Shown here one piece after another: positions 1,397-37,148 of a DNA stretch of 37,148 bases; within the stretch, counting starts at the first letter, position 1, and the number at the start of each line of letters is the position of its first letter. The notes under the pieces were generated by a model, which saw only the letters and a list, made by a program, of their open reading frames with translations, made no database searches and had not been told where the DNA came from. The translations under genes and the position numbers were made by a program. Location of the stretch: the NCBI GenBank assembly GCA_031289055.1, contig JAITQE010000006.1, positions 1 through 37,148 on the forward strand. The letters are read 5' to 3'. This stretch comes from Candidatus Endomicrobiellum porotermitis (lineage in GTDB: Bacteria; Elusimicrobiota; Endomicrobiia; Endomicrobiales; Endomicrobiaceae).

Positions 1397-2170
1397 ATGA
1401 AAAAAGACGCTTTAAACATCGCGGGTCTTAATCTTGACAGCAGATTGTTTATTGGCAGCGGGAAATTCCCTAACAATAGTATAATTCCAGATATTTTAAA
1501 AGCTTCCGGAGCGCAGATAATAACTGTCGCCGTAAGAAGATTTGATTTTGAAAATCCTCTTGAAAATATTTTAAATTTTATTCCTAAAGACGTTTATATA
1601 ATGCCAAATACGTCGGGAGCCAGAACCGCTGATGAAGCGGTTAATATTGCAAGAATTGCCAAAGCCGCTTGTGGAACAAACTTAGTAAAAATAGAAATAA
1701 TAAACGATAACAAATATTTATTGCCCGACAATTACCAAACGGCAAAGGCATGCGAAAAGCTCTCAAAAGAAGGCTTTAATGTTTTTGCTTACATGAATGC
1801 GGATTTATATGCCGCAAGAGATATGCAAAATGCGGGAGCAAAAGCCATAATGCCTTTGGGGTCGCCAATCGGGACTAACCGCGGGCTTAGAACTGAAGAA
1901 ATGGTGCGTATTTTAATTGAAGAAATAGACGCGCCTATAATAGTTGACGCTGGGCTTGGCAAAGCGTCTGAAGCTTGCAAGTGTATGGAAATGGGCTGCG
2001 CTGCGGTAATGGCAAACACAGCCATATCGTCAAGCCCAAACGCCGTTTTAATGGCCGAAGCATTTAAAGACGCCATAACGTCAGGCAGAAAAGCCTATCT
2101 TGCAAAGCATGGCGCGGTTTCGGATGTTGCAAGAGCGTCGTCTCCTTTAACAGAATTCTTAAGGAACTAA
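1397..2170 (+). CDS. thiG: Thiazole synthase ThiG
   Basis: ThiG condenses 1-deoxyxylulose 5-phosphate, dehydroglycine and sulfur from ThiS thiocarboxylate into the thiazole phosphate half of thiamine. The 257 residues match the usual family length. The start [15 protein letters not shown] is typical. The Schiff-base lysine is K98 in NLVKIEI, and the phosphate-binding TIM-barrel part is seen in [16 protein letters not shown] and [13 protein letters not shown] 7 nt before the ATG fixes the start. It is the first gene of the riboswitch-controlled operon, and the supplier of dehydroglycine, thiH, follows 9 bp downstream. Confidence 0.96.
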
Positions 2171-2179
2171 GAGGTTTGT

Positions 2180-3292
2180 ATGAGCTTTTATAACGAAATG
2201 CAAAAATATAAAAACTTTGATTTTAACGCTTTTATAGATAAAGTTTCAGATAATGAAGTACTAAATATTATTAACGAGAAAAGCTTATCCCGGCGAGACT
2301 TTCTTGTTTTGCTTTCTCCAAAAGCGTTAAATCATATTGAAGCTCTTGCCCGCAAAGCAAACGAAATTGCCGTAAATAATTTTGGCAAGAGCATTCTGTT
2401 GTACGCTCCTTTGTACGTTTCAAATTTTTGCGTCAACAATTGTTTGTATTGCGGTTTTTCCGCTAACAATAATATTAAAAGAGAAGCTTTAACTTTTGAA
2501 GAAATAGAAGAGAACTGTAAAATAATCGCTGGCTACGGCATACGCCATATTCTTCTTGTGTGCGGCGAGAGCAGGGTAAAAACATCTTTGGAATATCTTA
2601 AAAAATCCGTTAAAGTTTTAAAAAAATATTTTGACGACGTTGATTTGGAAGTTTATCCTCTTGAAGAAGACGAATACAGAGAACTTTTTTCTGCGGGCGT
2701 AGACGGACTTACAATATATCAAGAAACGTACGACGAAAACCTTTATAAAACGCTGCACGCAAAAGGCGCAAAAGCCGATTATAGATACCGCCTTGAAACA
2801 TGCGAAAGAGCCGGAAGAGCAAATTATAGAAATCTTAACGTCGGGGCGTTGCTTGGCTTAAAAGATTTTATCAGCGAAGTTTTTTTTGCAGGTATGCACG
2901 CTCAATATTTAAGGAAGAATTTTGCGCATGCGGAAGTTGGAATGTCTTTTCCAAGACTGCGTCCTTCTGAAGGCGGTTTTCAGCCAAAAACAACCATAAC
3001 CGACGCGCAGTTGGTTCAAGCCATATGCGCTGCGAGGCTTTTTATAAACAGAGTAAATATTACAGCGTCTACGCGAGAAAGTTTTGAGTTAAGAAATAAC
3101 CTTATCCCGCTTGGCGTTACCAAAATGTCCGCAGGGTCAAGCACGGAAGTAGGCGGATATGTAAAAAGAAGTAAAAACAGCGAAGTTTTATCAAAAGGGC
3201 AATTTACAATAAACGACGTCGCAAGCGTCGCAAGCGTTAAAGAGATGATTTATAAAACCGGCTATCAGCCCGTTATGAAGGACATGTTCTAA
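2180..3292 (+). CDS. thiH: 2-iminoacetate synthase ThiH (radical SAM)
   Basis: ThiH cleaves tyrosine with a 5'-deoxyadenosyl radical to give dehydroglycine and p-cresol for ThiG. The radical-SAM cluster motif CX3CX2C is C84-C88-C91 in FCVNNCLYCGFS. The 370 residues are normal for the family, and typical blocks such as YQETYDENLYK, GALLGLKD and SFPRLRP are intact. Use of the oxygen-sensitive ThiH instead of ThiO (glycine oxidase) fits an anaerobe. It is tightly packed between thiG and thiE, with the thiE ATG directly abutting its stop. Confidence 0.96.
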   Translation: MSFYNEMQKYKNFDFNAFIDKVSDNEVLNIINEKSLSRRDFLVLLSPKALNHIEALARKANEIAVNNFGKSILLYAPLYVSNFCVNNCLYCGFSANNNIKREALTFEEIEENCKIIAGYGIRHILLVCGESRVKTSLEYLKKSVKVLKKYFDDVDLEVYPLEEDEYRELFSAGVDGLTIYQETYDENLYKTLHAKGAKADYRYRLETCERAGRANYRNLNVGALLGLKDFISEVFFAGMHAQYLRKNFAHAEVGMSFPRLRPSEGGFQPKTTITDAQLVQAICAARLFINRVNITASTRESFELRNNLIPLGVTKMSAGSSTEVGGYVKRSKNSEVLSKGQFTINDVASVASVKEMIYKTGYQPVMKDMF

Positions 3293-3928
3293 ATGAAAAA
3301 ACAAACGCCAAAAGGGTTGTATGCCATTACCGCAGAGAACTTCTCAAATGGACGAGATAATATAACAGTCGTTAAAGAAATGCTTGACGCTGGCGTAAAA
3401 ACGCTGCAATACCGCGATAAATATAAAACAAAATTGGAAAAATTTAACCAGTGCGAGACAATACGCAAACTAACGTCGGACTACAACGTATTTTTTGTGG
3501 TAAACGATGATATAGACATAGCTCTTGCCGTTGAAAGCGACGGACTGCATTTGGGTCAAGACGATTTGCCTATTCTGAAAGCAAGAAGTATAGTCGGCGA
3601 CAATATGGCTATTGGCGTTTCAACGCATTCGCCTGCTCAAGCGCTGGCGGCTCAAGAGCAAGGCGTAGATTATATCGGCGTAGGACCTATATTTAAAACT
3701 TTCACAAAAGATAATGTTTGCACGCCTGTTGGCATTGAGTATCTTAAATATTGCGTAAAAAACATTAAAGTTCATAAAGTAGCTATCGGAGGAATAAAGC
3801 TTTCTAACATTGGTCAAATATGTAAATTTCGCCCAGACAGCATTTGCATGGTAACTGAAATTACCGCTTCGCCAAACATTAAAAATACAGTCAGGCAAGC
3901 TTTAGAGGGTATCAATGATAACAATTAA
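3293..3928 (+). CDS. thiE: Thiamine-phosphate synthase ThiE
   Basis: ThiE joins hydroxymethylpyrimidine diphosphate and thiazole phosphate to make thiamine monophosphate. The 211 residues show the family marks: QYRDK (39-43), VVNDDIDIAL (69-78), DGLHLGQDD (83-91), THSPAQA (111-117), YIGVGPIF (127-134) and AIGGI (164-168). The start codon follows the thiH stop with no spacing (TAAATG), so translation is probably coupled. The end overlaps thiS by 14 nt. Confidence 0.95.
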   Translation: MKKQTPKGLYAITAENFSNGRDNITVVKEMLDAGVKTLQYRDKYKTKLEKFNQCETIRKLTSDYNVFFVVNDDIDIALAVESDGLHLGQDDLPILKARSIVGDNMAIGVSTHSPAQALAAQEQGVDYIGVGPIFKTFTKDNVCTPVGIEYLKYCVKNIKVHKVAIGGIKLSNIGQICKFRPDSICMVTEITASPNIKNTVRQALEGINDNN

Positions 3929-4118
3929 GCTAAACGGAAAAAATGAAAAAGTGAAAGAAAATTTTTCTCTTCTGAAGTTGTTGGAAGAGAAAAATATTAT
4001 TCCCGAGACCGTTGTCGTAGCGTTAAACATGAACGTTATAAATCAAACTGACTTGCATAAAAGTTTCCTTTCAGACGGCGACAGCGTTGAAATTTTAAGA
4101 TTTGTGGCAGGCGGATAA
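3915..4118 (+). CDS. thiS: Sulfur-carrier protein ThiS
   Basis: This 67-residue ubiquitin-fold protein ends in VAGG. The terminal Gly-Gly is adenylated by the ThiF-type enzyme encoded next and becomes the thiocarboxylate that donates sulfur to ThiG. The N-terminal pattern ITIKLNGKNEKV and the C-terminal DGDSVEILRFVAGG are typical. It overlaps thiE by 14 nt and lies 5 bp from the next gene, consistent with translational coupling. Confidence 0.95.
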   Translation: MITIKLNGKNEKVKENFSLLKLLEEKNIIPETVVVALNMNVINQTDLHKSFLSDGDSVEILRFVAGG

Positions 4119-4123
4119 TTTTT

Positions 4124-5209
4124 ATGCAAAATTTTTACGAAAGGTACAAAAGCCATATATTGCTCAAAGAGATAGGCGTTAAGGGGCAGAGACGCATAAA
4201 AACTTCGCGCGTTCTTATCGTGGGAGCTGGCGGGCTTGGTTCGCCGCTAGCGTTATATCTTGCCGCAGCCGGAGTAGGAAATATAGGCATTATTGATTTT
4301 GATAATGTCGACGTTTCAAACTTGCAAAGACAAATTCTCTACAATGATAATGATATTGGAAAAAGTAAAGTTGAAGTTGCTAAAGAGCGTATAGAAAAAT
4401 TAAACCCTGAAATAAAAGTTTGCGCTTATAATGAAAAACTTACAAACGCAAACGCTTTAGAAATATTTAAAAATTACGATATTGTCGCGGATGCTGCGGA
4501 CAATTTTCAAACGCGTTATCTTGTAAACGACGCTTGCGCTCTCAGCGGCATTCCTGACGTTTGGGCATCGGCATATAAGTTTGAAGGACAGGTAAGCGTT
4601 TTTGACGCAAAAAAAGGGGCGTGTTACCGATGTTTCCATCCTGTCGCGCCAAAACCAGGAAGCGTTCCTTCATGCGGAGAAAGCGGCGTGATAGGGGGAG
4701 TAACAGGAATAATAGGCTCCATACAAGCTTGTGAAGTTCTAAAAATTACAACCGGCGCGGGCGCGCCCTTAATTGGACGTTTATTATATTTTGACGCGCT
4801 TAATACGCTTACAAAAGAGTTTAAAATTGCAAAAGACAAAAGTTGTTCTTTGTGCGGCGAAAATCCGTCAATAACAGAACTTCAAGATTACGACGAATTT
4901 TGCCAAATTAACAATTTTGCTGAAAACGAAATAACTCCTGACGAATTAAATATAAAACTTAAAAATGAAAAGAATATACAAATAATTAGCGTATACGAAG
5001 AAAGCGAAAAACAAGATTTAGTTTTTTCCGACTCTTTGCCCGTAGCTTTAAATAATATCGTGTTTTTAAAAGATAAGCTGAACGCAAATGTAGAAACTAT
5101 TTTTGTTTGCAAGTACGGATACAAAAGCATTTACGCTATACGATTGCTAAAAGAGGCGGGATACAAAGGGAAAACGTACAGTCTTAAAGGCGGAACCGAT
5201 AAATATTAA
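4124..5209 (+). CDS. thiF: ThiF/MoeB-type adenylyltransferase fused to a rhodanese-like domain
   Basis: The E1-like domain occupies residues 1 to about 250, with the ATP-binding GAGGLGSP (35-41), the DFDNVDVSNLQRQ block, and a zinc site made by C167/C170 (CYRC) and C241/C244 (CSLC). C184 in VPSCGESG matches the cysteine that forms an acyl-persulfide with ThiS in this family. A C-terminal segment (about 255-361) looks like a short rhodanese domain with C329 in VCKYGYKS as the likely persulfide carrier. It should activate ThiS and perhaps also deliver the sulfur. Its place after thiS supports a thiamine role, but a second job with MoaD-like carriers cannot be excluded. Last gene of the operon. 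Confidence 0.9.
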   Translation: MQNFYERYKSHILLKEIGVKGQRRIKTSRVLIVGAGGLGSPLALYLAAAGVGNIGIIDFDNVDVSNLQRQILYNDNDIGKSKVEVAKERIEKLNPEIKVCAYNEKLTNANALEIFKNYDIVADAADNFQTRYLVNDACALSGIPDVWASAYKFEGQVSVFDAKKGACYRCFHPVAPKPGSVPSCGESGVIGGVTGIIGSIQACEVLKITTGAGAPLIGRLLYFDALNTLTKEFKIAKDKSCSLCGENPSITELQDYDEFCQINNFAENEITPDELNIKLKNEKNIQIISVYEESEKQDLVFSDSLPVALNNIVFLKDKLNANVETIFVCKYGYKSIYAIRLLKEAGYKGKTYSLKGGTDKY

Positions 5210-5303
5210 AAAATCGTCACATATTGTAAAATAGTTTAATAATTTGACAAAATATATATTTTTTGTTCAATGGTTCTACTAAATAGCATCTAGGCGGTTC
5301 AAA

Positions 5304-5528
5304 ATGGAGTTTAATAAACTTATAGAATTAGATAGGTTGGCTAAGGAAGGCGTTACAAAATACACTAGTCATAGAAAGCTTTATTTTAAATTATTACAAG
5401 ACAAAGGGAAACATTTTGTTGGCATTATTGGTCCAAGAGTCGTAGGAAAAACCATAATATTTATAATACAGTTGATAAGAAACCGCTTTTTGCATTTGGT
5501 CTTATTGAGAATTGAGTCTTTCTCTTGA
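5304..5528 (+). pseudogene. N-terminal stub of a P-loop ATPase
   Basis: The 74 residues carry a Walker A motif (GPRVVGKT, about residues 43-50) preceded by a helical start, as in AAA-type ATPases of the DUF4143 kind. No Walker B or later domain follows. Beyond the motif the reading frame degrades into hydrophobic residues and stops, and the next 300 bases hold no continuation in any frame that I could follow. I read it as a truncated gene, though the exact family is a guess. Confidence 0.5.
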
Positions 5529-5832
5529 GTTTATCGGGTAGGTAAAAATAGTAGCTTTTATGAGCGAACCAGATCCAAAAGGGGAACCTTTTTTGAAAAA
5601 TCTTAGTAAAATTAGGCTAAAAAGAGCGCTTTTTTATGTAAGTAATTTTAAGTTTGTCGTCTGAGAGATTATTTAAAAAAGTATTTCTTTGGAATACATA
5701 GTAATTAAGTATATTTTTAGTGTTATTGTTCCTTTACGCATAATCGCAAAGCCCTGCTATGAAAAAAACAGAACCAAACTGAAAAAACATTGTTCTATGT
5801 TATACAAATTTGTATAAAATGCACTCGGTATT
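5529..5832. other. Non-coding AT-rich decay region with short repeats
   Basis: No open frame is supported. Two small structures are present: a 14-bp direct repeat AATCGCAAAGCCCT at 5742-5755, repeated at 5846-5859, and a perfect 18-bp palindrome TTATACAAATTTGTATAA at 5800-5817. The second copy of the direct repeat lies inside the chimeric pseudogene that follows, so the repeat may mark a rearrangement junction. Confidence 0.6.
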
Positions 5833-6219
5833 TTAATGCCCACCAAATCGCAAAGCCCTCAGTCCACAATATCCATAATAAGGTTCATATAAATCACCAG
5901 AACTAAGACCGTCTTCTACATGAAATACTGGAACCTTAGAATAAAAACCAGCTAATGCTCCACTAATGCCAAGAGCATTCCAAGTATAGTGGTAAAAAGT
6001 GGTTTTTATATATACAACTTTTTTGGCATAATAGGCAGTTTGAATAGAAAAAAGCTGGTCTTCGTAATAAAAACCTTCCGCAAAGGTGATTTTATGTTTG
6101 TTTATTAACGATCTGCGATAAATACCATCGCGGACCCCAATACAATGCGTTAAATTTTTTAATTTATCTATATAGACAAATATTTTCACAGTATCATTTT
6201 TACTTCTTTTCACTCTCAA
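5833..6219 (-). pseudogene. Chimera of a GT2 glycosyltransferase fragment and a wecB fragment
   Basis: Residues about 25-82 (VRDGIYRRSLI..., FYYEDQLFSIQ, FYHYTWN) match the middle-to-late part of family-2 glycosyltransferases that carry the ED-Q and YxYRxN-like blocks. The nucleotide-binding N-terminus is missing. From about residue 84 the protein switches to GALAGFYSKVPVFHVE, a copy of the UDP-GlcNAc 2-epimerase encoded at 8482-9618. In that copy the conserved VEAGLRSG has become VEDGLSSG, and the segment is followed by an unrelated tail. The only start is a TTG. Both halves are incomplete, so no activity is expected. It arose by partial duplication or recombination inside the cluster. Confidence 0.8.
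5882..5963. repeat. Copy A of an 82-bp epimerase-gene duplication
   Basis: 5882-5963 matches 9230-9311 in the same orientation with 4 mismatches in 82 bp. All four fall in the first half and the second half is identical. This suggests a recent event or ongoing gene conversion. Confidence 0.93.
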
Positions 6220-6240
6220 ATTCCCTCTTTTTCCTCTGTC

Positions 6241-8274
6241 CTAAGAATGATCCTTTTTTATCTTCTCTACAATTTTTATCATTAGTTTAGTACTAAGTTT
6301 ATAATGGATATAATTAAACATCTTTTCTCGCAATAAACGACGTGTTGACTTTTTTAAAATTAGACAAGAGGTCAATCTCACAATAAATTTGAATAGTTTT
6401 TCTAACAATACACTCTCTCCAAAATAATATATAGGAATATGTTCAATGGAAGACAAGCCGCTATCCTTTCCATATGACTTTGACGTTATAATTGCTCTTG
6501 GGTCTAAACCAAGAACTACTAATTCTATTAGATATTCATCATTTTTTAAAAATTTAATTTTATCATAATCTTTGAAAATTTCTGATAACTTTTCATCAAT
6601 CACTATTTTTTCAGACTCTGAATACACCTTATAAAGTACATTAAAACCGCCTTCTAAAAGGCTCTTTATAAGTTTTTTATAAATCTTAAGTTCAATATAT
6701 TCATTAATTATTCCCTTATTTTCAAACCTCACCAATATCAAAACTTGTTTCTCTTGTCTTAGATATGGAAAGTTTTCGTTAGTTTGTTTGTATATTTTCA
6801 AAATACTATTCTTAAGGCTTTCTTTGTCAATTTTTACATTTTCTTTTATTATAATTACATTTCTTTTATTGTAGAAATTTTTAAACTTTTTAACATCAGC
6901 AGATATATAGACCGCATTGAATAGGCAAAGAAATTGATCATCGTTTATATTAACAGCATCTGTATCAAAAACACCATCAAACAAAGAGGTAAGGTTAGTT
7001 ATCTTATCAAGCATCTCTGAGTTTACAGCAATATAGTTGTGAGTATTATTACTCTCTAAATTGCTAATAAGTGTATAAACATTTATTAGAGTTTTCCATT
7101 TTGTAATTATGTATAATCTATTATCCTCATATTTCCGCAATTCCTGAAGAAGCTTATCTTGTTTTTTAAATCTGAGAATAATTTTTTCCCATTTTTGCTT
7201 CCATATTTTTTTGTCAAATGAAAGAGCTACTTGCCTCGCCCTTTCAGGCATGTCATGAATTAACCCTTTGTCATCTAAAATTATATTCAATGTTTTACGT
7301 AATTCATCTTTATTTGGATTAATTAAAAATCCATTATACCCATCTATAATCAGATTTGTTAGCCCTCCAACATTCGTAGCTATTACAATATTGCCACAAG
7401 CCATAGCTTCTAAACACGAGAGAGATGTCCCCTCTGAATACAATGTGGGTATTAGAGATATATCTGCAGACTGATACACGTTCACCATATCATCGCTGTC
7501 ACACACACGATGAGTTACGCGAGAATGGAATAACATTTGTAACTTTTTTAAATCTCCTTCAATAGCTTTCTCATGTATAAAACCAACAAAATTAAAAACA
7601 ACATTCTTATGTTTATTTAAAATATATGGCAAGATCTTAGAGACAAGCCAATACCCTCGTTCATGAACGACTCTTCTAGGAAAAACTACTCTGATTTGTT
7701 TGTCGTCTACCTCTCTCTTTTTCGGCAAATATTTTGTAGTATCTACATAATTTGGAATATATGCCGCTTTCATAGCGCTCAACGTTTTTGAAAATGTTGC
7801 CCGCAACCATGAAATAGTATTAGTATCAACAGATACAAAATAATCTACATCAGCAATAATATCTAAAATCGCTTGTTGAAACACATCATGCGTAGGATCA
7901 TCCCATGTTACACCGTGCGAGATAAGAATATTAGGGTGTATTTTTTCTCCCCAATTAGTTAAGCCTGAATAAATTACAAATTTATATTTTTTAAATAAAG
8001 AAATTATTTTATGAAATTCTGAAAAGCTAACAGGAACACCTACTACATTAAGCATTTTAACTTTTCTATACCATATTTCACGTTTATCTAAATCTCCAAC
8101 CTGTATTAAAACAGGCGTATATCCATCGTTATCAAGAATCTCAGCAATATCTATACAATATCTCTCTGCCCCACCATTATAACAACGATGTCCCGTTGTA
8201 TCAAAAAATTGGCATTGAAAAATATATACAGGAGAACTAAATCTATCTTCTATATCTTTAACTAACTCTTTCAT
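6241..8274 (-). CDS. GT4-type glycosyltransferase with a long C-terminal extension
   Basis: This 677-residue protein has a GT-B fold in its first about 380 residues. GGAERY near residue 35 is the usual N-terminal donor/acceptor loop. The C-terminal Rossmann domain holds FPRRVVHERG and the nucleotide-sugar signature EGTSLSCLEAMACG followed by ATNVGGL and DGYNGFL. Residues about 390-677 form an extra region with weak resemblance to a second Rossmann-like unit and no motif I can name. It probably transfers a sugar during assembly of a surface polysaccharide. No clear ribosome-binding site precedes the ATG. It lies downstream of the epimerase gene on the same strand and is AT-richer than the housekeeping genes. 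Confidence 0.88.
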   Translation of the reverse strand: MKELVKDIEDRFSSPVYIFQCQFFDTTGHRCYNGGAERYCIDIAEILDNDGYTPVLIQVGDLDKREIWYRKVKMLNVVGVPVSFSEFHKIISLFKKYKFVIYSGLTNWGEKIHPNILISHGVTWDDPTHDVFQQAILDIIADVDYFVSVDTNTISWLRATFSKTLSAMKAAYIPNYVDTTKYLPKKREVDDKQIRVVFPRRVVHERGYWLVSKILPYILNKHKNVVFNFVGFIHEKAIEGDLKKLQMLFHSRVTHRVCDSDDMVNVYQSADISLIPTLYSEGTSLSCLEAMACGNIVIATNVGGLTNLIIDGYNGFLINPNKDELRKTLNIILDDKGLIHDMPERARQVALSFDKKIWKQKWEKIILRFKKQDKLLQELRKYEDNRLYIITKWKTLINVYTLISNLESNNTHNYIAVNSEMLDKITNLTSLFDGVFDTDAVNINDDQFLCLFNAVYISADVKKFKNFYNKRNVIIIKENVKIDKESLKNSILKIYKQTNENFPYLRQEKQVLILVRFENKGIINEYIELKIYKKLIKSLLEGGFNVLYKVYSESEKIVIDEKLSEIFKDYDKIKFLKNDEYLIELVVLGLDPRAIITSKSYGKDSGLSSIEHIPIYYFGESVLLEKLFKFIVRLTSCLILKKSTRRLLREKMFNYIHYKLSTKLMIKIVEKIKKDHS

Positions 8275-8314
8275 TTGTTTTTCGCTTATACTTTATAATT
8301 AAATTATTAGCTTT

Positions 8315-8488
8315 TTAGTTACCCAGAGTTTTGACATTAGCATATACCTTATCTGTCCATGGCACAACGTCAAAATCTTGTCTATGCTTTTCAAATTCAT
8401 CTTTGTCAACTGTTCGGTATGATACTCTTTCAGCGGAAAGATGCTGAATAAAAATTCCAATAAAAAGAGAAAATGCTATGTTCAACAT
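8315..8488 (-). CDS. 57-aa hypothetical protein overlapping the epimerase gene
   Basis: An ATG inside the last codons of the epimerase gene opens a 57-codon frame, sharing 7 nt with that gene's end (8482-8488). Such stop/start overlap suggests translational coupling. The first about 18 residues are hydrophobic (IAFSLFIGIFIQHLSA) and could be a signal or anchor. The rest is polar (DEFEKHRQDFDVVPWTDKVY). I do not recognise it; it may be the stub of a longer lost gene. Confidence 0.4.
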   Translation of the reverse strand: MLNIAFSLFIGIFIQHLSAERVSYRTVDKDEFEKHRQDFDVVPWTDKVYANVKTLGN

Positions 8489-9618
8489 GCGCTACAATCC
8501 TTTTTACTAAAAAATTTGTTTATTTGTTCTAAAATTCTTATACTTGCCTTGCCGTCTCCATAAGGATTTTGAACTTTATTTCTTGTTAAGGATTTGTCTT
8601 TTTTTAGCACACTAGATGACTCTTCTAATATCTTTTTATAATCTGCTCCTACAAGTTTAGCAATGCCAGCTTTAACTCCTTCAATTCTTTCCGTTGCATA
8701 CCTCAACGCTATCAAAGGAACGCCAAACGATGGCGTTTCTTCTTGTATTCCACCGCTATCTGTGAGTATAAGTTTAGAATTTTTCATTAGTGTTACCAAA
8801 ACTGGATAATCTACTGGCTCCAACAGTTTAACATTATTATAAGAACTCAATGTGTTGTGTACATTTTGTCTTACATTCGGATTAGGATGCACAGGTAAGA
8901 CAAATGTATGATCATTAAAAATACTGGCTAATTTTGAGATGGCTTTTAAAATACTTTTGAGTCTGTTTCCATGATTTTCCCTTCTGTGCACGGTAATTAA
9001 CACAAGTCTATCGTTAATCTTAATATTATTATCTTTAAGCGTTAGTAACGCTTGTTCCATTACATCTTTCGGCAAACAACTTAAAGCATCTATACCTGTA
9101 TTTCCCGAAACAATTATCTTATTTTCTGGGAGATTTTCCTTAATTAAAGTTTCTTTAGCTAGTATTGTGGGAGCAAAATGCAAAGCTGTTATTTTAGAAA
9201 TCATTTCTCTTAACGCTTCTTCTGGAAATGGTTCATATAAATTACCCGAACGAAGACCGGCTTCTACATGAAATACTGGAACCTTAGAATAAAAACCAGC
9301 TAATGCTCCACAAAAGGCAGACATCGTATCGCCTTGAACAAATATTCCATCAAAATTTTCGTTTAATAGAACTCTTTGCAGTTTTAATAAAAGATTAGAT
9401 TGCAACTCAAATAACGTTTGATTTGGAGACATGACATCTAAATTAATATCAGCTTTTAATTCAAAAAAAAACAACGCTTGATTTGAAAGTTCTTTTTGTT
9501 GTTCAGTATTACAAACTGTAACTTTATAATTTTCTGATTTTAATTTTAAAATCAACGGCGCGAGTTTTATAGCTTCAGGGCGTGTTCCTAAAACAACTAA
9601 CAAATTTTTACAAAACAT
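8482..9618 (-). CDS. wecB: UDP-N-acetylglucosamine 2-epimerase (non-hydrolysing)
   Basis: The enzyme interconverts UDP-GlcNAc and UDP-ManNAc, supplying ManNAc units for surface polysaccharide. The 378 residues are the normal length. Family blocks are intact: GTRPEAIKLAP (11-21), VQGDTMSAFCGALAGF, HVEAGLRSG with PFPEE, VSGNTGIDAL, the catalytic-region TVHRRENHG, PVHPNPNVR, and the substrate-binding DSGGIQEETPSFGVP. No ribosome-binding site is visible before the ATG. A piece of this gene (9230-9311) is duplicated at 5882-5963. The symbol is by family; the gene could equally be called mnaA. Confidence 0.93.
   Translation of the reverse strand: MFCKNLLVVLGTRPEAIKLAPLILKLKSENYKVTVCNTEQQKELSNQALFFFELKADINLDVMSPNQTLFELQSNLLLKLQRVLLNENFDGIFVQGDTMSAFCGALAGFYSKVPVFHVEAGLRSGNLYEPFPEEALREMISKITALHFAPTILAKETLIKENLPENKIIVSGNTGIDALSCLPKDVMEQALLTLKDNNIKINDRLVLITVHRRENHGNRLKSILKAISKLASIFNDHTFVLPVHPNPNVRQNVHNTLSSYNNVKLLEPVDYPVLVTLMKNSKLILTDSGGIQEETPSFGVPLIALRYATERIEGVKAGIAKLVGADYKKILEESSSVLKKDKSLTRNKVQNPYGDGKASIRILEQINKFFSKKDCSAC
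9230..9311. repeat. Copy B (source) of the 82-bp epimerase-gene duplication
   Basis: This segment of the intact epimerase gene encodes the GALAGFYSKVPVFHVEAGL region and is 78/82 identical to 5882-5963. The intact reading frame here marks it as the likely source. Confidence 0.9.
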
Positions 9619-9796
9619 TTAAAAATACCAGTAATAATATATAGTAACAACTGCACGTAAATTTAAAAACTGCAAGCTAAAGAAAAGCGGAATAAAAATT
9701 AAATAATTTTTTAAAGATTTTATCTTTATGAAAGAGATCATGTTTTATATTGACACCAACATCCATTATTTTTACGTTTTAGTTTTTCTTCTTTAA

Positions 9797-10717
9797 TTAT
9801 CTTGAAAGTTTAAACTTAATCTTTACACCAAATATTCTAACCAATTTATGTTGTCGCTTATCACAAACTGAAAATAACCTTTCCCAAAAAGATGCTCTGG
9901 CTAAAGTTCTACATATTTTAGCCACAAATTTCTCTCTAATTTTTTTATGCAAAATTAAAAAAGAAAATAGCAGTCCTATCTTTAAAGAAATGCTATTGTA
10001 ATATTTGAGCATCAATGGAACAACATACTTATTCCTAACAATTTTCATCTTTTCAACAGCTTCCTTTCCTGCCGTTTCAGTCAAAGAATTCGCATGTGAT
10101 CTGTAAACATACAAGTTGTAAGGCAAAGACCTTATTTTTCCAGCTATTGCAATCCTACACCAGTAATCATAATCTTCGGCACAAAACATATTGTCATCAT
10201 ACTCGCCAATGCTATTAGCGATTTCTCTCCTATACATGAAGCATGCCCCTATTTTGTTGTAATTTACAAGATCTAATGCTCTAATACCACTAACATTCTC
10301 ATCTCTAATTAGCGCCAGATTTTCATCAACAATATCGCTGCTACAAAAAACTAAGTCCGTATCTAGATTGCGCAAAAGATACTCTGACATTATAGACAAA
10401 GCTTCCGGCTTATACAAATTATCATCACTTGTCCAAGTAAAAAACCTTCCTAACGCTTTTCTAAAGCCTATATTTAACGCTCGCGGGAGTTTTTCATTTT
10501 TTTCATTAGTTATTACTTTTATTCTCTGATCTTTTCCTTCGTATTCTTTTGCTATATTTGCTGTTGTGTCTGTTGAACAATCATCAACTACTATCAATTC
10601 CCAAAATTTTTCCGTTTGTCTTATTATGCTTTTTATCGACTGACGAATATATCTTTCCCCATTATATGTAGGCAATACTATTGAAATCAAAGGCAATTTT
10701 GAACTTTTAATAAGCAT
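9797..10717 (-). CDS. Family 2 glycosyltransferase
   Basis: This is a GT-A fold transferase of 306 residues. The N-terminus SIVLPTYNGERYIRQSI is the classic GT2 start, followed by VVDDCSTDTT (nucleotide binding), the metal-binding TSDDN near residue 96, and the ED-Y block (CAEDYDYWCRI) expected for the acceptor/catalytic region. The C-terminal about 80 residues are basic and hydrophobic and may associate with the membrane. It is likely to add a sugar in the polysaccharide pathway served by the epimerase downstream. There is no obvious Shine-Dalgarno sequence before the ATG, and a 178-bp gap separates it from the epimerase gene. Confidence 0.9.
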   Translation of the reverse strand: MLIKSSKLPLISIVLPTYNGERYIRQSIKSIIRQTEKFWELIVVDDCSTDTTANIAKEYEGKDQRIKVITNEKNEKLPRALNIGFRKALGRFFTWTSDDNLYKPEALSIMSEYLLRNLDTDLVFCSSDIVDENLALIRDENVSGIRALDLVNYNKIGACFMYRREIANSIGEYDDNMFCAEDYDYWCRIAIAGKIRSLPYNLYVYRSHANSLTETAGKEAVEKMKIVRNKYVVPLMLKYYNSISLKIGLLFSFLILHKKIREKFVAKICRTLARASFWERLFSVCDKRQHKLVRIFGVKIKFKLSR

Positions 10718-10763
10718 TTAACTAATACCTTTGTCCAGAAATATCCAACTCTTTACCCTTTAA

Positions 10764-11696
10764 TTATATACTCTTCCGCTTCAATTTTATAACAGATTTC
10801 CCAAAAATCTGAATTACCTTTAGTTCCTTGCTAATGTTGCGCACAGCAAATAACCATTTTATAAAACGTCTGAAATTAGCGCGCATATTTTTTAATTTAA
10901 ATCTGTATTTTAAATTTCTCCACGGCGTAAAAGCCAAATACTCAAAGTATAAATCTGCCATAGGGATATATCGTAAAGGTCCTTTCCATGGCTTATACGC
11001 GACGTAATGAATTATTTTAGCATCGGCAAGAGCCTGGTCAAAAGTATTATCACGTTTCTCTATTTTTGATATTTGGGTATTCCATGCGCCGTCAATTACC
11101 TTAATTTTTTGCTCTAAAGCGCCGTTTAATATATCCTGATCATGGTATATAACTCTTTCTTTGTTCTTCTTTGTCCAATCAAAAACTTTTGCTGTTATAT
11201 TATCACGACGCCAGGCTAGCGCGTTGATAAGCAAAACGCCTGAGTTAGTGTATTGCTTTAAGCTTAATCTTTTTTCTTGTTCTATAAAATCACTATCAAG
11301 GACCGCTCCTACATAGTAATCCATTAAATCTATTTCCAACATTTCGCGCAAACTTGTTCTTACAACTAAATCAGAGTCTAAATAAATTATTTTGTCTTCG
11401 GTATTACAAATATTGGGCAATATTAGTCTGTAATAAGAAGCGTTTGTTATCTCATCTTCTCCATATACTCTAATTTCGGAAAATATTGTATTTTCAATTT
11501 TTTCAAATTTTATTTCAAAATCAGCAATTGATTTTAATGCTAACAACTTCTCTTTATTTTCCTTAGAAATACCGCCGTCTAATACATAAAATATTAACTT
11601 ATCATCTTCGCTCTTGTTTTTAAGTATTGACGTTATGGAAACTCCAAGATGAAAAACATATTTATTGTCGCACGAAAAACATATAGAGATACGCAT
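10764..11696 (-). CDS. Family 8 glycosyltransferase
   Basis: The protein has about 310 residues with GT8 features: N-terminal ISICFSCDNKYVFHLGVSI, the DXD metal/UDP site in IIYLDSDLVV, the NSGVLLIN block, DQDILN, and the late HYVAYKPWKGP motif that contacts the donor phosphate. I start it at the ATG at 11696. A longer TTG start at 11717 would add seven residues (MELVNLD) outside the conserved domain. GT8 members transfer galactose or glucose to lipopolysaccharide-type acceptors; the exact sugar cannot be read from the sequence. It is the first transferase of the minus-strand cluster. Confidence 0.88.
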   Translation of the reverse strand: MRISICFSCDNKYVFHLGVSITSILKNKSEDDKLIFYVLDGGISKENKEKLLALKSIADFEIKFEKIENTIFSEIRVYGEDEITNASYYRLILPNICNTEDKIIYLDSDLVVRTSLREMLEIDLMDYYVGAVLDSDFIEQEKRLSLKQYTNSGVLLINALAWRRDNITAKVFDWTKKNKERVIYHDQDILNGALEQKIKVIDGAWNTQISKIEKRDNTFDQALADAKIIHYVAYKPWKGPLRYIPMADLYFEYLAFTPWRNLKYRFKLKNMRANFRRFIKWLFAVRNISKELKVIQIFGKSVIKLKRKSI

Positions 11697-11804
11697 ATCT
11701 AAGTTTACTAACTCCAATTTTAGCAGTTAACTGATATTTTTAACTTCTTTTCCGTTAGATGCAATCGCAAGTAAGATTATTTTTTGTTTTTGCCACAATA
11801 TTTC

Positions 11805-12110
11805 TCATAATATCTTTTTGTACAAAACTTTTCCAACTCTTTTTATATGGTCTTTCAAGTTTTCATTACCTATGTTAGAATAAATAGATAAATCTATCAT
11901 CCACGGTAAAAGTAAATCATCAAGCTCAGAGCTTACTTGCAACAGCTCTTGAAATTCTATATCTCCATCTAATGTTAAATCTATATCTGAACCGGTTTTA
12001 TCGGTTCCTTTCGCGCGAGAACCGTATAATATAGCTTGTTTTATGTTTTTATGCTTTGCAAAGACTGAATTTATTTTATCCACAGCAGAGTCAGGCAAAC
12101 CATGTTTCAT
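11805..12110 (-). CDS. MntA-like nucleotidyltransferase antitoxin
   Basis: This 101-residue minimal nucleotidyltransferase has the exact GSX10DXD signature: G30-S31, then D42-I-D44 (YGSRAKGTDKTGSDIDL). In characterised MntA proteins this domain adds AMP residues to the partner HepT toxin and silences it. The start codon overlaps the stop of the upstream toxin-like gene by 4 nt (ATGA), so the two are translationally coupled. The acidic residue expected later in such enzymes could be D73 in PWMIDLSI. The toxin-antitoxin role is inferred from motif and pairing. Confidence 0.85.
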   Translation of the reverse strand: MKHGLPDSAVDKINSVFAKHKNIKQAILYGSRAKGTDKTGSDIDLTLDGDIEFQELLQVSSELDDLLLPWMIDLSIYSNIGNENLKDHIKRVGKVLYKKIL

Positions 12111-12523
12111 AGATCATCCGTGAGTTTCTGCATAGTATTGCGTAAAGTTTTAAATTCCTGTAAATATGACTCTAGTATAACTTTAGCAAGTTTATTAGCT
12201 GTTGTCTCATCATAAGTATGGCTTGATTCATTTCTACTTTTTACCATGTTCATCCATACTTCGCCATTTTGTATATACCCTTCTTTAAATGCAACGCGCG
12301 TAGAATCGCGCGATCCGTGCATATCCATGAACCCCTTAGTTTCAAGATAATCTTTTAATACATTCCAAGCCAGCTCGTGTGTAAATTCAAAAGCCTGTAT
12401 AAGCCCCTGTTTTTCAAGTTCGCTAAGATTGCGCTCTTTAGCTAATATTTCTGCCTTTTCTAAATTGTTAAGAGCTCTCTTATAGTTATCAAATCTTTGT
12501 TTCCAACGAATATCGTTTTGCAT
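12107..12523 (-). CDS. HepT-like (HEPN, HI0074-type) toxin
   Basis: This is a helical protein of 138 residues from the preferred start. It carries the HEPN RNase motif RX4HXY as R97-N-E-S-S-H102-T-Y104; the tyrosine is the AMPylation target in known HepT proteins. The preceding EFTHELAWNVLKDYLE and GSRDSTRVAFKEG blocks are those of the HI0074 family, first described as nucleotidyltransferase substrate-binding proteins. I choose the ATG at 12523 because AGGAG lies 8 nt before it; an upstream ATG at 12541 has no ribosome-binding site. It forms an operon with the MntA-like gene. Confidence 0.83.
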   Translation of the reverse strand: MQNDIRWKQRFDNYKRALNNLEKAEILAKERNLSELEKQGLIQAFEFTHELAWNVLKDYLETKGFMDMHGSRDSTRVAFKEGYIQNGEVWMNMVKSRNESSHTYDETTANKLAKVILESYLQEFKTLRNTMQKLTDDL

Positions 12524-12545
12524 TTTCAAGGCTCCTATCATCTAA

Positions 12546-12561
12546 GGGGGGGGATATTATA
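12546..12561 (-). promoter_or_regulatory. -10 element and G8/C8 tract before the toxin gene
   Basis: On the minus strand a perfect TATAAT (12561-12556) is followed after 2 nt by eight C residues (12553-12546). The predicted transcription start falls inside the tract. I see no convincing -35 box at 17 bp. The tract could slip and alter start or leader length. Confidence 0.45.
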
Positions 12562-12653
12562 ATAATTTTTATACCGCCAAGTCCATTAAGCAAGAAAATC
12601 AAAATGATAGTTTTTAAGAGGGGACCCTAATTGATAAACTCAGGCATTACTTT

Positions 12654-12692
12654 ATTAGGCTATTTTGCAATCTGATTGCAAAATAGCCTAAT
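12654..12692. repeat. Perfect 39-bp palindrome (19-bp arms, 1-nt centre)
   Basis: 12654-12672 is exactly complementary to 12674-12692 around a single T. Neither side has a real T tract, so it is a poor intrinsic terminator despite its stability. It lies between the toxin-antitoxin pair and the DUF116 gene and overlaps the end of a possible 43-codon ORF. It could be a cruciform-forming site, an operator for a dimeric regulator, or a mobile-element relic. Confidence 0.9.
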
Positions 12693-12819
12693 ATTTACTT
12701 ATGATAAGCCGATTGTCGCCACATATATCGCATTTGATAGATACGCCAATACCGCTAATGGAATTCGTCGTTGCCATGCCTTCGACATATCTGTAACCAA
12801 CAAAAATATTTCTCCTCAT
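12688..12819 (-). CDS. Possible 43-aa protein with a CxxC pair
   Basis: A short frame on the minus strand reads MRRNIFVGYRYVEG..., then SIKCDICGDNRLIISKY and stop. The CDIC pair looks like half a zinc ribbon. No ribosome-binding site precedes the ATG, and another frame of the same DNA (SKAWQRRIPLAVLAYLS) also looks protein-like, so one of the two may be the relic of a broken gene. Low confidence. Confidence 0.25.
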   Translation of the reverse strand: MRRNIFVGYRYVEGMATTNSISGIGVSIKCDICGDNRLIISKY

Positions 12820-12831
12820 CTTTTATAATTT

Positions 12832-12861
12832 TTGATATTATTACCAATTTTATGCTAAAAT
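12832..12861 (+). promoter_or_regulatory. Promoter of the DUF116 gene (leaderless start likely)
   Basis: TTGATA (12832-12837) and TAAAAT (12856-12861) are separated by 18 bp. Transcription would begin at about 12868, the A of the start codon, which has no Shine-Dalgarno sequence. Confidence 0.5.
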
Positions 12862-12867
12862 GCAGTT

Positions 12868-13344
12868 ATGAAAGTGTGTAAGCTCCCTGCAAAAAGCAAA
12901 GAGCGCGCCTATAAATCCTTTACAGATAAGCACAACAAGCTTCAAGCTGGAAAGTTTGCGTTGGTTCCGTTTAATAAACGCATAGTTTTTGCTCCTCATT
13001 GTATGAGAAACGTTGCCGGCTGCGCCGCCGCCGACAAAGGCGGATATTACGTTTGCGCGGAATGCGGCGGATGCAAAATAAATGCTATAAGCAAGCTTGT
13101 AAAACAACTGAATTATAAAGCCTTGTATATTGCTAAGGGCGGAAGAACTATAGAAAAGATTGTAAAGGAAGAAAATCCCGAGGCGGTTGTCGGAATCGCT
13201 TGCTTTTTTGAAGGAGACCATGCTTTTAAGCTGTTAAAAGATGCGCATATGTCCGTACAATTTACGCCGCTTACAAAAGACGGTTGTACGGCTACGGATA
13301 CAGATTTAGCGGAAGTAGAAAGAGTATTGAAGCAGACTAACTAA
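12868..13344 (+). CDS. DUF116-type cysteine-rich protein
   Basis: The 158 residues carry a cysteine cluster, HCMRNVAGC then CAECGGC (about residues 44-69), followed by a small alpha/beta domain (ALYIAKGGRTIEKIV, VVGIACFFEGD) and a late cysteine in KDGCTATDTDLAEV. This pattern matches DUF116 proteins, whose cysteines probably bind a metal or Fe-S cluster; the function is unknown. It is transcribed alone. No ribosome-binding site is seen, and the predicted promoter places the transcript start at the ATG. Confidence 0.75.
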   Translation: MKVCKLPAKSKERAYKSFTDKHNKLQAGKFALVPFNKRIVFAPHCMRNVAGCAAADKGGYYVCAECGGCKINAISKLVKQLNYKALYIAKGGRTIEKIVKEENPEAVVGIACFFEGDHAFKLLKDAHMSVQFTPLTKDGCTATDTDLAEVERVLKQTN

Positions 13345-13689
13345 ACTGCCTGCGAACAAATGCACGACCCATCGCTGCATGGTTCTGTCTTTTCATCTTG
13401 TCTGTTTCATAATATTAACAACATATTTTTCTATTAAAATTTTTGAGCAAATGACACGCTAAGATCTAAAGATGCGGATTATACAACTGCGCGAAGTCTA
13501 CAATGAAAAGTAAATTTTACAACGTCAACCAGCATAAAGTGTTTTATTTGCCGTCCTACATTTGTATGAAAAAATAACGCGAAGATTCAATAACACGCCG
13601 TACTAAAGAGATTTACAGACGTTAAGCTAAGACAAAAAACGCACTTTAGAATTAAACCATGATCTTTGCTCCAAAAGGACTTGTAGAAA
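13345..13689. other. Intergenic region before the DEAD-box helicase gene
   Basis: The 345 bases have no supported ORF in either direction and no strong hairpin-plus-T terminator. It may hold a long leader for the helicase gene, as is common for cold-induced RNA helicases, but I see no specific element. Confidence 0.5.
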
Positions 13690-15360
13690 ATGACAACGTT
13701 AAAGTTTACAGAATTAAATTTATCTGACGAGATAATTAAAGCCGTTTCAGATTTGGGTTTTGAAGAGGCTACGCCTATCCAGAGCCTTGCTATTCCTAAA
13801 GTAATGGCGGGACTAGACGTAATAGGACAGTCCCAGACGGGCACAGGCAAAACCGCAGCTTTCGGTATACCCGTTTTGGAAAAAATTGACACAAAAAACA
13901 AAAATGTCCAAGCAATAATATTATGCCCTACCAGAGAGCTTGCAATACAAGTCTCAGAAGAATTGAAGCTTTTCTCAAAATACAAAAGAGGCATTAACAT
14001 AGTGCCTGTTTACGGCGGACAGCCTATACAAAGACAAATGGCAGCTCTTTCCAAAGGAGCGCAAATTATTATAGGGACTCCCGGAAGAGTTATAGACCAT
14101 TTGGAACGTAAAACTCTAAAACTTGAGTCCGCGATTATAGCTGTTTTAGACGAAGCCGACGAAATGCTTGATATGGGTTTTAGAGACGACATTGAGTTGA
14201 TATTAAAAAGCATGCCTGAGGAAAGACAGACTATTTTTTTCTCGGCTACTATGCCTAAAGACTTTATGTTTTTGACAAAAAAATATCAGAAAAGTCCTGA
14301 GACAATAAAAGTTGTAAATGAAAAGTTGACTGTTCCTCTAATTGAACAATATTATTTTGATTTAAGAGAACATCAAAAGCTTGAGGCTCTTACAAGATGT
14401 CTGGACATGTATAATCCAAAACTTTCTATTGTTTTCTGCAACACAAAAAGAAGAGTTGACGAAACTACTTCTTCCCTGCAGGCAAGAGGATATTCCGCAG
14501 ACGCGCTTCATGGAGACATGAACCAAGCCCAAAGAGACAGAGTAATGGCTAAATTTAGAAGCGGCTCTATAGAAATACTTACGGCTACAGACGTAGCGGC
14601 AAGAGGCATAGACGTTGACAATGTAGACATGGTGTTTAACTTTGACGTGCCTAAAGACGATGAAGATTATGTCCACAGAATAGGAAGAACGGGAAGAGCG
14701 GGCAGAACCGGAAAAGCTTACAGTTTTGTTTCCGGTAAAGATATTTACAAATTGAGAGATATTCAAAAATATACAAAGGCAACAATTAAGAGGACAAAAG
14801 TCCCTTCTCTTACCGATGTTGAGAATATCAAAGCAACGGTTCTGCTTGATAAAGTGAAAGAAATTCTAAAAGAAGAAGATTTAGAAAAATATTCGCAAAT
14901 GATAGAATCTTTAATCTCTGACGAAACAACTTCTTTAGACGTAGCGGCAGCTCTTTTGAAAATGATGTTTGTTTCTGAAAAGAAAGCCCAAGAACAACAA
15001 GCGGATATTTTTGCAAATGCAGTTAACCATTACGCAGACACGGGAGCGAGGGAACGCGGAATGGCAAGGCTCTTTATAAACGTAGGCAAAAAAGACAACG
15101 TGCGAACCGAAGATTTTGTCGGCGCCATAGCTGGCGAAACCGGAATTGGCGGAAATGCGGTAGGCAACATTAAGATTTTGGAATCGTTCTCTTTTGTTGA
15201 AGTGCCAAGCGAACATGCCGACGCAGTAATTAACGCTTTACATTCAAGCAATATAAAAGGGAAAAGGGTTTCTGTAGAGCTTGCAAAAGCAAGAAACTCT
15301 TCTGAGCCTGAAAGCGACAGACGCTCTATCTACGGGAAGCGCAGAACATTTAGAAGATAA
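13690..15360 (+). CDS. deaD: DEAD-box ATP-dependent RNA helicase (DeaD/CsdA type)
   Basis: The 556 residues contain all helicase motifs: Q motif GFEEATPIQ (23-31), SQTGTGKT (48-55), PTRELA (80-85), TPGRV (130-134), DEAD (154-157), SAT, ARGIDV and HRIGRTGRAGR. The C-terminal part (about 450-530, starting near ARLFINVGKKD) is a DbpA-type RNA-binding domain, as in the CsdA/DeaD group. It unwinds structured RNA during ribosome assembly and mRNA decay, notably in the cold. AAAGGA stands 12 nt before the ATG, a rather long spacing. A membrane-protein gene and mnmE follow closely on the same strand. Confidence 0.95.
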   Translation: MTTLKFTELNLSDEIIKAVSDLGFEEATPIQSLAIPKVMAGLDVIGQSQTGTGKTAAFGIPVLEKIDTKNKNVQAIILCPTRELAIQVSEELKLFSKYKRGINIVPVYGGQPIQRQMAALSKGAQIIIGTPGRVIDHLERKTLKLESAIIAVLDEADEMLDMGFRDDIELILKSMPEERQTIFFSATMPKDFMFLTKKYQKSPETIKVVNEKLTVPLIEQYYFDLREHQKLEALTRCLDMYNPKLSIVFCNTKRRVDETTSSLQARGYSADALHGDMNQAQRDRVMAKFRSGSIEILTATDVAARGIDVDNVDMVFNFDVPKDDEDYVHRIGRTGRAGRTGKAYSFVSGKDIYKLRDIQKYTKATIKRTKVPSLTDVENIKATVLLDKVKEILKEEDLEKYSQMIESLISDETTSLDVAAALLKMMFVSEKKAQEQQADIFANAVNHYADTGARERGMARLFINVGKKDNVRTEDFVGAIAGETGIGGNAVGNIKILESFSFVEVPSEHADAVINALHSSNIKGKRVSVELAKARNSSEPESDRRSIYGKRRTFRR

Positions 15361-15372
15361 CCTTTTTAACGG

Positions 15373-15738
15373 ATGGGAATTGTGCGAAAATCTACCGTGC
15401 AGCTTTTGTCGGTTTTCTTTTTGGGTCTTATTTTTGGACTTTTGACGAAGTTTTCAGTAACCCTTCTTCTAGTTTTAGCGCCAACGTTAGTTTCTGTTTT
15501 TATTTACACAATGCGCGATACGTCGGGACTTAAACATAATCAGGACAAGTATTTTATCGTTATATCCGCTTTACTATATTTTGTAGACTTGGCAATTTCA
15601 TTATATTCAGCTATAGCGCTAGTCTTGCTTGCAATATATGAGATTTCTGAGGGGAAAAATTTTAAAACTTTATCCTTAAGATTGCTTCCTCATATAATTA
15701 TTACAATTACAGTCGCTTCAATCTTTTTGTTTATATGA
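15373..15738 (+). CDS. Small integral membrane protein, unknown function
   Basis: This 121-residue protein has three or four predicted transmembrane segments (about 9-45 as one or two, 60-85, 100-120), separated by short basic or polar loops such as TMRDTSGLKHNQDKY. It lies 12 bp after the helicase gene and overlaps mnmE by 4 nt (ATGA), so it is probably co-transcribed and coupled to mnmE. I recognise no family motif. A position before mnmE recalls the membrane insertase yidC found there in many genomes, but this protein is far too short and shows none of its features. Confidence 0.7.
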   Translation: MGIVRKSTVQLLSVFFLGLIFGLLTKFSVTLLLVLAPTLVSVFIYTMRDTSGLKHNQDKYFIVISALLYFVDLAISLYSAIALVLLAIYEISEGKNFKTLSLRLLPHIIITITVASIFLFI

Positions 15739-28438: not shown

Positions 28439-29824
28439 TTAAGTTTTCTTTTTTGTAATTTTGAAAACGATATAAACCGCAAATACCCATATAGGGATAG
28501 CTGTTACTTGCTTTGCCATTCCAATTTGAGAGAATGTCATTGCCGTAAGAATAAACGCGATAAAAGCAAGCGTAATGTAATTTGAGTAAGGGTAAAACGG
28601 CGCTGGAAATAAAGTTTCTTTATTTTTACGTTTAAATTTCATATGGGATAAAGTTAGAAGCGCCCAGTTTACAAGAATGCAAACAACCACAAAACTTAAA
28701 ATTATTTTAAACGCTTCAAACCAGTTTGGAATAAAATAATTTAAAGGCGCGACTAAAAATGTTATTGCGCTTGAGACGAGAATTGCATTAAACGGTACGC
28801 CTCTCTCGTTTGTTTTTGTCAAAGCGTGAGGCGCGTTTTTCTGAAGAGCAAGACCGTAAAGTATGCGGCTGTTGCTGTAAATGCAGCTGTTGTATACGGA
28901 CAAAGCGGCTGTAAGGATGATAAAGTTTAAAGTCCACGCCGCGTACTTAAAACCAATGCGGTCAAAAATCATAACAAATGGACTCTCTGATGTGCTTAAG
29001 TCGCTCCAGTGGTAAAGCGATAAAAGAACTACAAGCGAGCCGACGTAAAAAATTAAAACGCGGTAAACGACTTGGTTTATAGCTTTGGGAATAGTCTTTG
29101 CCGGATTTTCAGTTTCTGCGGCGGTTATGCCTATAAGTTCCAATCCGCCGAATGCGAATGTGATAATTGGCAAAGCCATTATAAGCCCGATAGAACCGTG
29201 CGGGAAAAAGCCGCTAAAAGCAGCGTCTCCCGCGTGGAGTCCGACACAAGGAGCTTGCCATAAATTTTTAATTGTTGCTCCGACAACAAGACTTGGGTCA
29301 AAGAAAAGAATATATCCGCCCGCTAAAATCATTGCGCAAATGGCGAATATTTTAATTGAAGAAAACCAAAATTCCACCTCGCCGTAAGCTCTGACGGCTG
29401 TAAAGTTTACAATGTTTATAACTATAAAGAAAAACAGCGCTGTTTTCCAAGTGGCGATATTAGGAAACCAATACTGCGCGTATGCGGCGACTGCGGTAAG
29501 TTCGGTTATTCCTGCAAGAGCGTATTCAAACCAATAATTCCAGCCGGCCAAAAATCCTGGAAAATCTCCCCAATATTTATAAGCGAAATAGCTTGAAGAG
29601 CCGGCGGAAGGATCTTGCGCGCTCATTTCGCCAAGCTGTCTCATCATTAAAAATACTATTATGCCTGCGACTAAATATCCAAGAAGAACGGCTGGACCTG
29701 CGACAAAAATAGCGCCGCCCGCGCCTAAAAAGAGACCTGTGCCTACAGCTCCTCCAAGAGCTATAAACTGTATATGGCGGTTTGTAAGATTGCGTTTTAA
29801 TTTGCTTTTTTCAGGGTTACGCAT
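28439..29824 (-). CDS. AAT-family amino-acid permease (paralog 1)
   Basis: This is a 461-residue cytoplasmic-membrane transporter of the APC superfamily with about 12 transmembrane segments. The N-terminal cytoplasmic KRNLTNRHIQFIALGG leads into the unwound TM1 motif GTGLFLGAG that binds the substrate amino group. AETENPAKTIPKAINQV after TM6 is typical of the AAT (LysP/AnsP/ProY/CycA) branch. AAGGAG stands 8 nt before the ATG. The substrate cannot be told from the sequence. It is the last of three tandem paralogs on the minus strand, sharing long identical stretches with the others. Confidence 0.92.
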   Translation of the reverse strand: MRNPEKSKLKRNLTNRHIQFIALGGAVGTGLFLGAGGAIFVAGPAVLLGYLVAGIIVFLMMRQLGEMSAQDPSAGSSSYFAYKYWGDFPGFLAGWNYWFEYALAGITELTAVAAYAQYWFPNIATWKTALFFFIVINIVNFTAVRAYGEVEFWFSSIKIFAICAMILAGGYILFFDPSLVVGATIKNLWQAPCVGLHAGDAAFSGFFPHGSIGLIMALPIITFAFGGLELIGITAAETENPAKTIPKAINQVVYRVLIFYVGSLVVLLSLYHWSDLSTSESPFVMIFDRIGFKYAAWTLNFIILTAALSVYNSCIYSNSRILYGLALQKNAPHALTKTNERGVPFNAILVSSAITFLVAPLNYFIPNWFEAFKIILSFVVVCILVNWALLTLSHMKFKRKNKETLFPAPFYPYSNYITLAFIAFILTAMTFSQIGMAKQVTAIPIWVFAVYIVFKITKKKT

Positions 29825-29972
29825 ATTAAATCTCCTTTTCTAAGTTTATACTAAATTCAGACGACTAACATCCACAAATAGGGGCAGCGATAACTTGTTT
29901 AAAATTGCCAGATTGCGGCAATGCCATAAAAAGAACGGACTTTCAACCATTTATTGCTTCAAGTTTCGTAGG

Positions 29973-31436: not shown

Positions 31437-31453
31437 AGCTAATTCCTTTTTAT

Positions 31454-36164: not shown

Positions 36165-37148
36165 TATGCTAGGGGTTCAACCGCAGTATTGCAACAAGCT
36201 TTACAAGATGGGCGAAGGCAAGAGAGATAAAAGAGCTTGAAAGAGCGGTAGCAAAATAAGATTTTGGTAAAGTAGAGAGCGAGAGCGTGAAAAAATAGGG
36301 TTGTTTTATCAAAGGAAAGGATTAAACTTTAAGCAAGAAGCATATGAAGTTAAACGGTCAACGTTGTTTAATTGGCAAAAGAAGAATAGGGGATATGAGA
36401 TAGCTGTTTTAATAAACGGCGACCGATGTCGCAAACAAAAAGGACAAAGCGGGATAGCGCAGAAGTAATGGAATTCATTAAAGAATATCGCGGGAAGCAA
36501 GGTAAGATGAAATGAAACCGCATTTGGACGAATATAGTAAAAAGAACGGATTAAAAACCAATTAGGTATCCAAGTATAGGCAGAATAATTCGGAGGTTAA
36601 AAGATAAAGGCGAACGAACAATAGTGTCGGATATAGTTTAAACGGCAAGACGGGAAAAAGGATACGATAAAAAAAGAAAGAAGATCCCCGTGATACGTTC
36701 CTGAAAAACCCGGCGATTTAATTGAAGGTTAATAGCGCGCGTTTAAATATAGATGGAAAAAAGGGATATTTAATAAATGCGATAGACATAAAAAAAGGAC
36801 GGATAGGATTTGGTTGTGAATACGCATAGACTAAAGAGTCAAAAGGCGACAGATTTCTTTGAAAAATTACAAAGATATTATCCGTTTGAAATAAAGAGGA
36901 TAGAGACGGACAAGGGAAGCGAATTTGACGGATACGCGCGCGCGAATACTTAGAAATAAATAATGCATTTTAGAATTATCAGCGAAGTCCCAAAAGCAAT
37001 GCTTAAAGCAATGCTTATATAGAAGGATTTAACATGGCGATAAAAGAAGAATTTGTTTACAGAAATGAAGATTGGATAGAAGATTGCAAAGAAGCAAACG
37101 AAAGAATACGGGATTGCTTATTGCGGGTATAATACGCAAAGATATCGC
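36165..37148 (+). pseudogene. Degraded integrase-type (DDE) transposase
   Basis: Reading across frames restores an N-terminal helix-turn-helix (QEAYEVKRSTLFNWQKKN) followed by the integrase core: PGDLIE (first Asp lost), KGYLINAIDIK, ATDFFEKLQRYYPFEIK, ETDKGSEFDGY (second Asp), RSPKSNA ... AYIEGFN (Glu), and EEFVYRNEDWIEDCKEANERIRD. Many frameshifts and stops interrupt it, so it is inactive. A 12-bp tandem duplication sits at about 36993-37017. The left edge is approximate and the gene runs past the window end. The type is like IS481-related or similar rve transposases; the exact family is uncertain. Confidence 0.85.
36968..37085. repeat. Right arm of the 118-bp exact inverted repeat
   Basis: Inverted copy of 1-118, lying inside the transposase pseudogene. 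The reading frame upstream continues smoothly into this arm (YLEINNAF, stop, NYQRSPKSNA), so this is the original site and the left arm is the displaced copy. Confidence 0.97.

Follow-up and report, generated by a model that had tools for sequence, protein, structure and literature searches.

The stretch of DNA analyzed here, 37,148 nucleotides from Candidatus Endomicrobiellum porotermitis (the window), carries on its minus strand a block of genes at positions 5710–10735 that has no counterpart in the closest relative, genome G005. The block contains an intact GT2 glycosyltransferase (9797–10717, minus strand; Pfam), an intact wecB gene, a protein with a GT4 domain, and a chimeric open reading frame. 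The wecB gene (8482–9618, minus strand) encodes a non-hydrolysing UDP-GlcNAc 2-epimerase of 378 amino acids. It is a full member of TIGR00236, scoring 407 bits against a cut-off of 210.15 and covering positions 3–363 of the 366 in the model. The GT4 protein (6241–8274, minus strand) has 677 amino acids, of which residues 184–348 form the GT4 domain in Pfam. Its C-terminal approximately 320 residues match no Pfam family, and no close relative of the protein was found in the genus.

Beyond the right edge of the block lies a GT8 glycosyltransferase (10764–11717, minus strand), identified by Pfam and by comparison as common to G005 and a further relative, G026. To the left is the pseudogene of an AAA ATPase (5304–5721, plus strand), in which 982 bp are missing between positions 5461 and 5462 relative to G005. 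The counterpart in G005 is intact and encodes 400 amino acids.

Between the ATPase remnant and the chimeric frame's wecB piece lie 172 bp (5710–5881) with no convincing match among the compared loci. The 13-mer GGGCTTTGCGATT occurs here twice, at 5742–5754 and 5846–5858, 104 bp apart, and nowhere else in the genome. The probability of such a repeat within 600 bp is approximately 0.02 in a first-order simulation. As there are just these two copies, both here, an interspersed repeat element was rejected. The 172 bp also gave no convincing translated match, among the compared loci, as a continuing GT2 C-terminus or as another cassette gene. A relationship to the 172 bp of junk at the same place in G005 was dismissed, since 146 of 500 shuffles reached its score. 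The only RNA family match in 5200–6300 was below threshold (17.5 bits against 40). A viral origin was likewise discarded, with just three wecB-like matches in the viral contig set.

Other features of the window were recorded. A near-perfect 41-nt palindrome (12653–12693; 20-nt arms, 1-nt loop) lies beside a nucleotidyltransferase/HepT-like pair (11805–12541). Three tandem amino-acid permease genes, 71–73% identical in DNA, occupy 28439–32851; the first of them was tested against Pfam and belongs to AA_permease. A perfect inverted repeat of 118 bp is present near both contig ends, at 1–118 and 36968–37085, with a further copy of 86% identity on contig C22 and a partial copy on C18. This dispersed repeat probably broke the assembly.

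Composition of the chimeric reading frame

The chimeric open reading frame (5833–6219, minus strand) has a TTG start and encodes 128 amino acids. It consists of a fragment from the middle of a GT2 gene, a fragment of wecB, and 14 unrelated residues encoded within the 172 bp described above. The wecB fragment (5882–5963, minus strand) is a copy of nucleotides 308–389 of wecB, the source segment lying within the intact gene at 9230–9311 (minus strand). All 82 positions of the two segments align in the same orientation, without gaps and with four mismatches. Identity is unbroken over at most 51 nt (5913–5963). The copy lies 3.3 kb from its source and its ends are sharp. A BLAST search within the window gave an E value of approximately 5e-31, and the segment was found at these two places only, with no third, when the 1.035-Mb genome was searched. 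The repeat is thus not due to chance, and the repeated piece named in the original prediction is confirmed.

The GT2 fragment (approximately 5964–6200, minus strand) corresponds to about residues 165–227 of a GT2 of the WcaA/PRK10073 type with approximately 350 amino acids. Residues ~32–86 of the chimera match positions 169–223 of the NCBIfam model PRK10073, which is 334 positions long, and the fragment shares 30–37% identity with residues ~160–227 of intact GT2s from this genus. Taken alone, the GT2 part matches no Pfam family. The N-terminal GT-A nucleotide-binding domain (PF00535) is absent, and with it the catalytic N-terminal half of the enzyme is missing. Residues 85–114 match positions 100–129 of TIGR00236, that is, 30 of 366 model positions. 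Scoring 21.4 bits against the curated full-length cut-off of 210.15, the frame is not a member of the family. The WecB motifs GDT and FPEE are also absent from the frame. Judged by these sequence features, both parts are stumps that lack the catalytic portions, and the 82-bp copy, given its 30 model positions, would be unable to be catalytic.

About 60 GT2 codons precede the wecB piece, and the two parts share one reading frame. The in-frame fusion described in the original prediction is therefore present, with model matches to both parts; the chance of an in-frame join is 1 in 3. A purine-rich GAGG stands directly upstream of the TTG. An open frame of 128 codons, an in-frame join, and this GAGG together make it conceivable that the chimera may be expressed.

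The fusion was absent among the 60 related genomes searched, and a search with WecB did not reveal it in 42 genomes of the genus. It was also absent from a contig set of 84,980 species, in which all 35 matches cover residues 85–114 only. The intact fusion gene in a relative that would have spoken against debris was thus found neither in the 60 relatives nor in the contig set. The two marks of a chimeric pseudogene, truncated parental parts and the lack of a conserved ortholog, are both seen here. Because the parts are truncated and the fusion occurs in one genome only, a working enzyme is very unlikely, and the chimera presumably lacks any function.

Divergence between copy and source

The copy reads VEDGLSSGD where wecB has VEAGLRSGN. 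The A and R of VEAGLRS are near-universal among wecB homologues, which places the replacements of A by D and of R by S in the copy. At the last position D is commoner than N among the homologues, so the change from D to N probably took place in wecB itself after the copies had split. The fourth difference is TCG/TCT. The proposed damage to VEAGLRS in the copy is consequently borne out for the A and the R; the N/D difference at the last position is probably a change in wecB and does not belong to it.

All four mismatches fall within the last 31 nt in gene sense (p approximately 0.018 under random placement). This clustering may hint at gene conversion of the first half of the 82 nt. The divergence of copy from source is 4/82 (4.9%), compared to the 4–6% that separates the window's flanking DNA from that of G005. 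The event is therefore approximately as old as the split from G005, and not obviously very recent. With wecB itself probably changed as well, the suggestion of a recent event or gene conversion finds little support.

The locus in related genomes

The window and G005 are collinear at 1745–5709 and 10736–15527, where they are 94–96% identical. Where the window has 5710–10735, G005 and G026 share a different island. At the right junction, the window has kept the first codons of the next gene of that island, TTGGATATTTCTG (10722–10736, minus strand, approximate to a few bases). The older island was therefore there first and was then replaced by the block.

In G026 the island is intact and spans approximately 16 kb, with a GT8, two GT2s, a nucleotidyltransferase, SDRs, and others. 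G005 has the same island minus 12.6 kb, and the deletion joins a GT2 out of frame to a 204-bp SDR scrap. On contig C26 of G005 (locus L035, 7681–8016), the cut GT2 and the 204-bp SDR piece are followed by a piece of open reading frame, KVKKPCFYESFIKELQNNGDDVMVF, without a match. All that is left in G015 is a GT8 stump, and in G011 a C-terminal SDR stump. Different genes (trigger factor, TamB-like) come after thiF in G025 and G033, which are more distant, and several relatives have lost the island completely. When the rest of the organism's own genome was searched for remains of the G026 island, a 40-nt match was all that emerged. The comparison with G005, G026, G011, and G015 bears out the view that this sugar-coat locus is being rearranged.

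The deletion junctions that can be read against a relative are two. The ATPase deletion in the window has zero matching bases at its ends (compared with G005), and the 12.6-kb deletion in G005 has approximately four perfect (eight imperfect) matching bases at its junction. The recombination between short repeats put forward in the original prediction is thus weakly supported at most.

A wecB break was also seen in another genome, G061. Its contig C19 (locus L024, 1–618) holds the N-terminal part of wecB, after which pieces of the same gene appear in inverted and direct orientation. The first break is at nucleotide 389 of wecB, the same nucleotide at which the 82-bp copy of the window ends. We did not retain this as a shared break; the pieces form a fold-back palindrome at the contig end and are suspected to be an amplification or assembly artefact.

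Formation and significance of the chimera

The repeat, the truncations, the replaced block, and scraps of the same kind at the same locus in relatives are directly observed. The chimera marks one edge of this block, with a truncated GT2 on one side of it and a truncated ATPase on the other, and illegitimate recombination would explain all of these features. We therefore consider it very probable that the frame at 5833–6219 is a non-functional scrap left by illegitimate recombination at the thiF-side edge of the replacing glycosyltransferase block. That block took the place of most of an older surface-polysaccharide island in the lineage of the window. Illegitimate recombination, comprising several deletions and possibly a short templated insertion, would have brought together a mid-portion of a GT2 gene, 82 bp of wecB, and the 172 bp beside the deleted ATPase gene. 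The chimera's lack of function and the order of the events are what we infer. The partial model matches and the lack of the fusion in relatives agree with the earlier reading of the chimera as debris made of a truncated GT2 and a truncated wecB copy.

A misjoin of contigs at the repeat is very unlikely. The genome is a draft in 26 contigs, and the fold-back wecB palindrome at the end of the G061 contig is of a type that arises from amplification or assembly artefacts. However, the two copies differ at four sites and share an exact run of just 51 nt, unique sequence stands on either side of the repeat copy, and G005 is collinear with the block's surroundings on both outer sides. That the chimera works as a small fusion protein, perhaps one that regulates WecB, is highly improbable. 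The frame is open and the WecB segment is mostly unchanged (three replacements in 27 codons), but GDT, FPEE, and the entire GT-A nucleotide-binding half are missing, the conserved VEAGLRS no longer has its R, and a single genome carries the fusion.

Within the reading as debris, the 82 bp could have arisen in two ways. They may be the remainder, after deletions, of a longer second wecB copy that was produced by tandem duplication or carried as a second allele by the block. We regard this as a plausible route, short of probable, and slightly favour it. At this locus G005 has retained a 204-bp piece of SDR flanked by two breaks, and copy and wecB have both diverged, with the copy retaining the commoner D. 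However, several deletions are required, and neither a second wecB nor duplicated neighbours leave any other trace in the genome. Alternatively, a single template switch during replication may have placed the 82 bp of wecB next to the GT2 remnant, which we hold possible, more tentatively. The sharp ends, the common orientation, the distance of 3.3 kb, and the limit of the shared sequence to 82 bp fit such direct copying, and the second short direct repeat, GGGCTTTGCGATT, in the adjoining DNA hints at local copying. Against it, large deletions that removed entire genes produced the scraps at the sister loci, with no copying step needed, and a simple insertion into a GT2 gene fails because no recognisable GT2 gene resumes after the scrap. 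The statement that the 82 bp were copied as such thus holds for one of the two options; a trimmed longer copy fits the sister scraps equally well or better. That surface-glycan islands of Endomicrobia diversify by repeated short templated copying, with in-frame products sometimes kept and expressed, we consider very doubtful.

Variable O-antigen and capsule islands resemble the locus in having conserved flanks (here thiF, and the GT8 with the nucleotidyltransferase pair) and sets of glycosyltransferases that differ among sister species. The locus differs from them in that the examined junctions showed no mobile element and several relatives have lost the island. A close parallel to the chimera itself lies in the truncated or chimeric pseudogenes of endosymbiont genomes under erosion, here those of Endomicrobia. 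For the family, progressive genome erosion with horizontal acquisition has been described (PMC11257099). The genomes of that study share with ours the reduced size of approximately 1 Mb, the AT richness, gene remnants, and gains beside losses. The study differs in that the locus is not discussed and its main text uses neither "pseudogene" nor "glycosyltransferase". Over residues 1–343, the window's MnmE shares 66% identity with that of another Endomicrobia genome (locus L101), and a genome of about 1 Mb with a low GC content is consistent with the flagellate endosymbionts Endomicrobiellum.

The chimera is most likely a real but ordinary gene scrap, a product of ordinary genome decay in an eroding, exchanged surface-polysaccharide locus. 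It is useful as a marker of the thiF-linked sugar-coat locus. The sister species freeze stages of island loss (intact, 12.6-kb deletion, stumps), and the genome of the window shows replacement. With successive stages of loss frozen in this way, the rate and the junction type of island decay in Endomicrobia are measurable.
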